Position numbers and translations under genes: made by a program. Below, in pieces: positions 25,116 through 25,780 of a DNA stretch of 64,000 bases. The notes under the pieces were generated by a model. The model did no database searches, was not told the origin of the DNA, and was given only the letters and a program-made list of their open reading frames with translations. Location: assembly GCA_025677835.1 (NCBI GenBank), contig JAIXMR010000045.1:1-64000 (forward strand), written 5' to 3'. The DNA comes from Sporodiniella umbellata. Taxonomy: Eukaryota; Mucoromycota; Mucoromycetes; Mucorales; Rhizopodaceae. Every line of letters starts with the position of its first letter. Positions within the stretch are counted from its first letter, which is position 1.

Positions 25116-25780
25116 TTATAGAGTCTTTCTTTGAATTGGCTTTTGAATATCTGGGTTGTCCAACAAATCTTGAATAGCCAAAAGAAGCTATTGTTTTGTA
25201 CTCGTGTTTAATGTTGTTCAAATTGGGTAATCATGTTACCTGAGTCAGAGTGATGATAGGCTTCCAGTCCTCTTCCTCTTTCAATAGGGGTAACTCAATA
25301 GCGCCTGAGGGATATACGCTAGGGTGAAACAGAGGAGTGATAAATCTACCTAATAATCATGAGTATAAACTACGTCAAAAAAAACGAACTTGAACCCATT
25401 TACAAACGGGAGGTCTACTTGGATATTCTAAAGGTATGGTTTATTTCACCGAGCAAAAAAAAAAAAAAAAAAAAAAAAAACTAGTTACCTTTCGGGAATT
25501 GCACGATTAATTCGTAAACACTGTTTTCCCATAACGTCTGTTTATTTGATAAGCATATTCCAAGATTTTATTTATTTACATTCTTTTTCCCGGGAATACC
25601 ACAGACCCAGTTGAATAAATCCAATGAGTTGTCCTGTTTCTTTTCAGGTCGAGCCCAAAAACCCTGGGTGGTACAGAGTAAAAAGAAAGGCGTACTTTTA
25701 TATCAACCTACATGTGGATGCTCTTTTCTCCATTGTCTTCTTTCCTCTTCAATTCTTTTCCACGCAATGCCCGCGTTCAT
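25116..25780 (-). CDS. Ubc9-like pseudo-E2 (catalytic cysteine missing)
   Basis: Six exons, all GT-AG and phase-consistent: 25780..25712, 25663..25580, 25537..25489, 25427..25404, 25349..25240, 25187..25116; 135 residues. Homology to the SUMO-conjugating enzyme Ubc9 is clear end to end: MNAGIAWKRIEEERRQWRKE, LDLFNWVCGIPGKKN, YPSRPPVCRF, PLFHPSVYPSG and EEEDWKPIITLTQ...LLAIQDLLDNPDIQ. Two catalytic features are lost: the active-site Cys (human Ubc9 YPSGTVCLSIL) is Glu94 in YPSGAIELPLL, and the E2 HPN motif is HPS (Ser86). The last about 25 residues of Ubc9 (C-terminal helix) are absent; a stop after QRKTL is followed by an AATAAA signal. Ubc9 charges SUMO on that Cys, so this protein cannot act as a normal E2; a UEV-like binding role is possible. 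The exons are too short to stand out as long open frames. Confidence 0.85.
25453..25480. repeat. Poly(A) tract in intron 3 of the pseudo-E2 gene
   Basis: About 26-28 A on the plus strand (T run in the sense strand) inside the intron 25428..25488. Confidence 0.85.

Follow-up and report, generated by a model that had tools for sequence, protein, structure and literature searches.

Ubiquitin has dedicated catalytically dead E2 partners, the UEVs, and the accessible text of one report describes two of them, Mms2 and Tsg101, as having the E2 fold without the active-site cysteine and without the two C-terminal helices (PMC4481407). The same text describes a Drosophila E2 variant, Peo, in which HPN is replaced by HPH and the cysteine by Asp; Peo retains both C-terminal helices, carries a long disordered tail, and binds telomere proteins (PMC4481407).

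For the SUMO pathway, related observations come from Ubc9 itself. Yeast Ubc9 that is SUMOylated at K153 was reported to become a non-conjugating cofactor for chain formation (PMC7924959). The plant SCE mutant C94A, added in equal amount, slightly increased SUMO chains (1.34-fold, P = 0.06), and in tenfold excess it reduced SUMO transfer; in the available sections of that study, SUMO modification of SCE itself gave no sign of chain promotion (PMC5748838). According to the accessible part of a further study, noncovalent SUMO and E1 bind overlapping parts of helix 1 of Ubc9, and the binding of E1 and E3 to Ubc9 appears mutually exclusive (PMC3012696). A human UBC9 with the change C93E has also been crystallised (PDB 9glr), for which no paper was found under that name. 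Among the open-licence papers listed, no gene-encoded Cys-less Ubc9 or SUMO counterpart of UEVs was found with this exact wording; the terms noncatalytic, non-catalytic and catalytically inactive are absent from the accessible text of PMC10984013, and a dominant-negative variant of the SUMO E2 is mentioned in the abstract of one paper found.

Here, we describe a Ubc9 paralogue from Sporodiniella umbellata (Mucorales, Rhizopodaceae), located in a 64,000-nucleotide stretch of DNA referred to below as the window. It lacks the catalytic cysteine (Cys), the HPN asparagine and helices alpha3 and alpha4 of canonical Ubc9 (Hus5, UBE2I), the SUMO E2, and no counterpart was found for the seventh exon of the canonical gene in the same genome.

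Gene structure of the Ubc9 paralogue

The gene is encoded on the minus strand, with the ATG beginning at 25780 and the stop codon ending at 25116, and consists of the following parts.

25712..25780, minus strand: exon 1, residues 1-23; N-terminal helix, with most of its E1 and SUMO-backside contacts kept
25580..25663, minus strand: exon 2, residues 24-51; strands E26-31 and E37-47 with the intervening loop
25489..25537, minus strand: exon 3, residues 52-67 and base 1 of codon 68
25404..25427, minus strand: exon 4, rest of codon 68 to base 1 of codon 76; YPSRPP, K75V
25240..25349, minus strand: exon 5, rest of codon 76 to codon 112; FHPS and YPSGAIELPLL, with N86S, T92A, C94E, S96P and I97L
25116..25187, minus strand: exon 6, residues 113-135 plus the TAA stop; G116A, N125D, A130I, the greater part of helix alpha2, and the early end
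25105..25110, minus strand: AATAAA hexamer, 5 nt past the stop codon; resembles a poly-A signal, putative role

Together, the exons give an open frame of 408 nt (135 amino acids plus stop), and all five introns, of 42-61 nt each, are bounded by GT and AG. The original prediction of six exons collinear with Ubc9, intact splice sites and no stops was thus exact, coordinates included. An NCBI protein entry for S. umbellata is identical to the 135-residue protein. At E up to 0.001, Pfam recognised UQ_con alone (121.2 bits), and the UEV family (PF05743) gave no match in the protein. Stops, frameshifts and broken splice sites, the lesions of a pseudogene, were not found in the gene, and the early end before alpha3 is the sole truncation seen. 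Exon 6 contains one GT, located mid-exon and 24 bases in; the sequence from there to the stop has no other.

Downstream of the gene, no convincing remnant of exon 7 was detected; apart from exon 6 itself, the best match (E 0.001) lies on the other strand, across a stretch rich in lysine/A. An alternative exon restoring the cysteine, the possibility originally raised against the prediction, was not seen either: a six-frame scan of 20-31 kb contained neither HPN(V/I) nor P(S/D)Gx(V/I)CL, the motifs that such an exon would have. Within 24860-26240, intron 3 and the gene's flanks contain numerous A or T runs, about 12-26 bases long. Runs in the coding sequence do not exceed 5 bases.

Canonical Ubc9 and lost catalytic residues

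A search of the rest of the genome for canonical Ubc9 had been suggested with the original prediction, and the genome (25.9 Mb, 198 contigs) indeed carries a Cys-bearing copy on contig C123 (199988-200796; 158 residues, seven exons). The gap-free alignment of the window protein with it shows 77 identities in the first 133 residues, and the five introns of the window gene lie at the same codons and in the same phases. Among the scored genome candidates, there was no third Ubc9-like copy; the other E2 matches were at 28-40% identity. Five stretches of the genome match the SP-RING family over the cut-off, and the profile of the Uba2 ubiquitin-fold family matched nothing anywhere, its controls included, and so carries no weight here. 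Ubiquitin-fold tandem repeats with a 228-base spacing, resembling polyubiquitin, were observed on three other contigs (C10:47208-47876, C101:57478-58146, and C144:467944-468378).

For comparison, 142 proteins were fetched, comprising the matches to the window protein and the best 120 of 3276 matches to a canonical Ubc9 query. HPN followed by Cys was present in 141 of these, the exception being the window protein's own entry. Ten of the 142 were left out of the alignment, namely this entry and nine short, long or divergent rows, all nine with Cys; the remaining 132 and the C123 copy gave 133 canonical rows. Position 94 is Cys and position 86 is Asn in 133/133 rows, and the window protein has Glu94 and Ser86. 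The predicted replacements of the SUMO-accepting Cys by Glu and of HPN by HPS are therefore both confirmed in the alignment. At each of its three positions, the Glu94 codon departs from Cys codons. Two other cysteines, C44 and C76, are left in the window protein, and both are common in canonical Ubc9s.

Within codons 1-135, 47 columns were near-invariant (one residue in at least 97% of rows). The window protein retains 37 of them and alters ten: L10I, K75V, N86S, T92A, C94E, S96P, I97L, G116A, N125D, and A130I. Six of 11 positions that we take to be involved in catalysis or substrate recognition are replaced (75, 86, 92, 94, 128, and 130), a count in which K77R is scored as kept and in which the A at 92 also occurs in 1/133 canonical rows. 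N85, Y87 and D127, which bear on this list, are mutants named in PDB titles.

Predicted structure

In the predicted structure of the window protein, the last helix of four or more residues is H110-122, and the chain ends before alpha3 and alpha4. The control model, of Syncephalastrum Ubc9, has both H132-140 and H142-155. The loss at the C-terminus that had been predicted is thus real, and it covers two helices, alpha3 and alpha4, rather than the single one originally described. The model matches Ubc9 structures through helix alpha2, and the closest structure is 3ong_B (TM 0.90 by query length). By sequence as well as by fold, the nearest solved relatives are Ubc9s, which together with the UQ_con match places the protein in the UBC fold with a Ubc9-type sequence; no UEV structure was among the best 50 listed in either of two fold comparisons. 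Model confidence in residues 91-110 is 71-74, versus 93 in the canonical control, and it is 55 at the end of the window protein; poor folding of the catalytic half is therefore possible.

The protein therefore resembles the UEVs Mms2/UEV1 and Tsg101 in having an E2 fold, no active-site Cys and no two C-terminal helices, but it descends from Ubc9 instead of from a UEV family, and at most it would work like a UEV by convergence. With Drosophila Peo it shares an altered HPN and an acidic residue in place of the Cys, although Peo has the two C-terminal helices and the long disordered tail and the window protein is without the helices. Human UBC9 C93E carries the same Cys-to-Glu replacement at the same site, but as an engineered single change.

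Origin of the paralogue

Four genes of the window, including the Ubc9 paralogue, have partners within 13.5 kb of contig C123 (197319-210839). The three neighbours are as follows.

1128..1913, plus strand: Gti1/Pac2-family gene, paired with a C123 copy
10372..12134, plus strand: acyltransferase-like gene, paired with a C123 copy; its Pfam match is below the cut-off
13674..18729, plus strand: kinesin-3-like gene, paired with a C123 copy; 18440-18729 also pairs and putatively belongs to the same gene

The duplicated block is partly inverted, with window 1128-1913, 10372-18729 and 25116-25780 corresponding to C123:197319-210839. In the genome, the closest relative of the window kinesin is the C123 kinesin (65%, versus 54% for the next, with a 492-residue query). 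Three other window genes have no common partner contig, and a comparison of 68 kb of C123 with 84 kb of contig C139 gave, beyond the block, weak matches only, near 3.7-4.6 kb.

Silent-site differences were 0.67-0.85 over nine stretches of the neighbour genes (kinesin pS 0.79-0.85) and 0.83 for the Ubc9 pair; one short Gti1/Pac2 stretch (52 codons), in which only 5/16 fourfold sites differ, runs against saturation. The dN of the Ubc9 pair, 0.31, is inside the neighbours' range of 0.06-0.61, though Ubc9 is normally far more conserved, as seen in the tree. Judged from these sequence comparisons, the window gene is a descendant of Ubc9 through an old duplication of a four-gene block. A recent duplicate without time to decay was rejected because the silent sites of the Ubc9 and neighbour pairs are saturated or nearly so, and a retrocopy was ruled out because the five introns are common to both copies. 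An ancient genome duplication has been described for Rhizopus in the accessible part of one report (PMC2699053); for the block found here, we do not decide between a segmental and a whole-genome duplication.

In phylogenetic trees, the window protein was placed among Mucorales without a settled exact position, and the Mucorales grouping was weak in one tree and starred in the other. Its branch was about 16-31 times that of the median row (2.47 versus 0.15 in one tree, 2.19 versus 0.07 in the other). The AU test rejected none of four placements (p 0.185, 0.277, 0.183, and 0.336). At 11 sites, the canonical enzymes of Sporodiniella and Rhizopus stolonifer agree with each other but differ from the residue listed as commonest in 20 other Mucorales (ties included). 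At these sites, the window protein has the commonest residue of the other Mucorales at four (at two of which those species vary between both residues), the residue shared by Sporodiniella and R. stolonifer at none, and a third residue at seven. This pattern suggests that the paralogue may have arisen before the common ancestor of the canonical enzymes of Sporodiniella and R. stolonifer. The alternative, in which the paralogue derives from today's Sporodiniella Ubc9 and arose after the separation from R. stolonifer, is disfavoured by the pattern at the 11 sites, although it is compatible with the AU tests.

Orthologue search and constraint on the paralogue

The paralogue has been seen in one species. 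With the whole window protein as query, the search for a Cys-less orthologue returned the protein itself and 25 others, all with Cys; with its distinctive half as query, it returned itself only; and among the canonical matches, the Cys was checked in the best 120 of 3276. Because both orthologue searches depend on 5-residue words in common with the query, they may overlook an orthologue that evolves fast.

The Ubc9 pair differs at 35%, 19% and 57% of codon positions 1, 2 and 3, respectively, a pattern that indicates constraint for most of the pair's history and that by itself is compatible with recent decay. Among the 37 unchanged near-invariant codons, 21 were silently altered. Of 58 replacements relative to the canonical copy, 31 are BLOSUM-positive, and random stop-free evolution to 58 replacements averaged 14.4 and never exceeded 25 in 1000 runs.

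A late neutral phase was simulated with 4000 runs per distance, under an assumed base composition and transition bias. The simulation covered single-base substitutions; indels would lower neutral survival further, and events affecting multiple neighbouring bases would ease three-base codon changes. A neutral distance near 0.1 was needed for about 10/47 near-invariant codons to be altered. At that distance, the frame was still open in 8.9% of runs (11.7% if begun from the canonical sequence), and the probability that all ten splice dinucleotides were intact was 0.135; at d = 0.05, the frame was intact in 27% of runs. C94E and K75V each require three base changes from any canonical codon. With splice sites uncounted, the combination of an open frame, at least 10/47 altered codons and, among these, at least two three-base codons arose in 1/4000 runs at d 0.5 and in 0/4000 at every one of the seven distances from 0.05 up to 0.4. 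Since two three-base codons were never reached in simulated short decay, it is most simply proposed that the Cys was lost long ago and that the reading frame has been maintained since. The long protein branch would also fit weakening constraint.

Conservation of partner-binding residues

The contact residues were taken from yeast complexes and shifted by +1, an offset confirmed by the end points of the structural alignments with 3ong_D and 7p47_C. Uba2 ubiquitin-fold contacts were described at L6, Q10, R13, K14, R17, K18, K30, D33, M36 and L38 in the accessible text (PMC3012696). Eight of the ten are kept in kind in the window protein, and the two remaining contacts fall in variable columns, yet the residues of the window protein there, W7 and E11, occur in 0/133 canonical rows. 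The backside SUMO contacts R13, R17, H20 and G23, and the SP-RING contacts L4, Q7, R8, P69, S70, E99, R104 and P105, were named in the accessible part of another study (PMC8636563). All four backside contacts are kept, and seven of the eight SP-RING contacts are as in the canonical copy, with the eighth in a variable column. Several of the kept contacts are near-invariant in canonical rows, so their survival would be expected if the fold were kept, and it is no separate proof of binding. Binding of E1, SUMO and SP-RING proteins by the window protein is thus a prediction from conserved residues.

Near-invariant columns were altered at 1/21 positions before residue 75 versus 9/26 from residue 75 on (P 0.014), a split that was chosen after seeing the data and for which P ranges from 0.006 to 0.09 by threshold.

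Possible function and alternative explanations

At the sequence level, the claim that the gene encodes a pseudo-E2 is supported, since a canonical enzyme coexists, the frame and splice sites outlasted a duplication old enough for silent-site saturation, the changes are conservative, and most of the published partner contacts survive where the Cys and Asn are lost. The decoy or scaffold role that was attached to it would be a further step from sequence. We consider it somewhat more probable than the opposite that the window gene is a retained Ubc9 duplicate that has lost catalysis and substrate recognition and has been selected as a protein that folds and can bind partners. Considerably less probable, though to be taken seriously, is a pseudogene or a copy near the end of its decay: here a long-working paralogue would have lost its constraint recently, with the stop before alpha3 as the first lesion. 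The missing helices alpha3 and alpha4, the 10/47 altered near-invariant residues, the long branch in the trees and the failure of either protein search to find an orthologue all fit such decay, and at a neutral distance of 0.05 more than a quarter of simulated frames survived. Against it, the distance near 0.1 left few frames open and few sets of splice sites intact, two three-base codons such as C94E and K75V arose in 0/4000 runs at d 0.05 and at d 0.1, and the replacements are conservative.

It is improbable that the window protein has left the SUMO pathway, either as a UEV-type partner of another E2, acting on ubiquitin chains, or as a free-standing scaffold, with its Ubc9 surface as mere inheritance. 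The UEVs Mms2 and Tsg101, as described in the accessible text, likewise are without the Cys and the two C-terminal helices (PMC4481407), but the published Ubc9 contacts to SUMO, E1 and SP-RING are kept rather than altered, the closest structures are Ubc9s, and Pfam gives UQ_con only. That the protein still conjugates through another residue, or has residual chemical activity, is very hard to credit: C44 and C76 remain, but they are also present in Cys94-bearing enzymes, and the catalytic Cys has been replaced along with the HPN Asn and several residues on the substrate side. Conjugation of SUMO by the window protein is expected to be absent. Just as little probability attaches to an artefact of the gene model or assembly, such as an alternative Cys exon or a misread base. 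Long A/T runs do occur in intron 3 and the flanks; however, the HPN/Cys exon motifs are missing from all six frames of 20-31 kb, no coding run exceeds 5, the Glu codon is three bases away from Cys codons, and the NCBI protein is identical, though this entry possibly comes from the same assembly.

For a retained, binding-competent duplicate, the favoured function would be regulation through binding of SUMO and E1. The protein would presumably be made, and its N-terminal helix and beta1-beta2 loop would dock on the Uba2 ubiquitin-fold domain and also on the surface by which SUMO contacts the backside of Ubc9, with the kept loop residues docking on SP-RING E3s. Having no Cys, it would form no SUMO thioester, and so it would compete with charged canonical Ubc9 or assist beside it. 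As a brake, it would compete with charged canonical Ubc9 for E1 and E3; as a helper, it would be a second, non-catalytic Ubc9 beside the canonical one, presenting SUMO for chain growth. Dose would decide between the two, and we do not choose between them.

A more specific proposal, which we regard as doubtful, is a SUMO counterpart of Mms2, that is, a non-catalytic Ubc9 born of block duplication and convergent with UEVs, which would bind SUMO by its backside, assist or gate chain building by canonical Ubc9, and be a permanent analogue of yeast K153 SUMOylation. Like the yeast K153-SUMOylated form and plant SCE1 C94A, it would be a non-conjugating Ubc9 able to favour chains beside an active enzyme; the yeast form, however, is a modified state and the plant form an engineered mutant, whereas the window protein is encoded by a separate gene and ends before the region that bears K153 in yeast Ubc9. 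If kept, a Cys-less Ubc9 beside an active one would offer a natural test of whether a second, non-catalytic Ubc9 has a part in forming SUMO chains, as the findings on yeast K153 and plant C94A lead one to ask. If true, it would also mean that a UEV-like protein can arise anew from another E2.

Other loci in the window

An adjacent pair of triosephosphate isomerase frames was also observed in the window, at 33925-34386 and 35524-35982, both on the plus strand. The first frame contains GHPERR, YEPLWTIGTG and LYCGSV, and the second GHSERR, YEPVWAIGTG and LYGGSV. These motifs are presumably important to the enzyme, and their differences in the first frame may mark another diverged enzyme copy. Finally, window 60611-63289, on the minus strand, encodes a large protein with 48 matching stretches in the genome, the closest of which over most of its length is on contig C137 (66%); it may belong to an expanded chitin synthase family.
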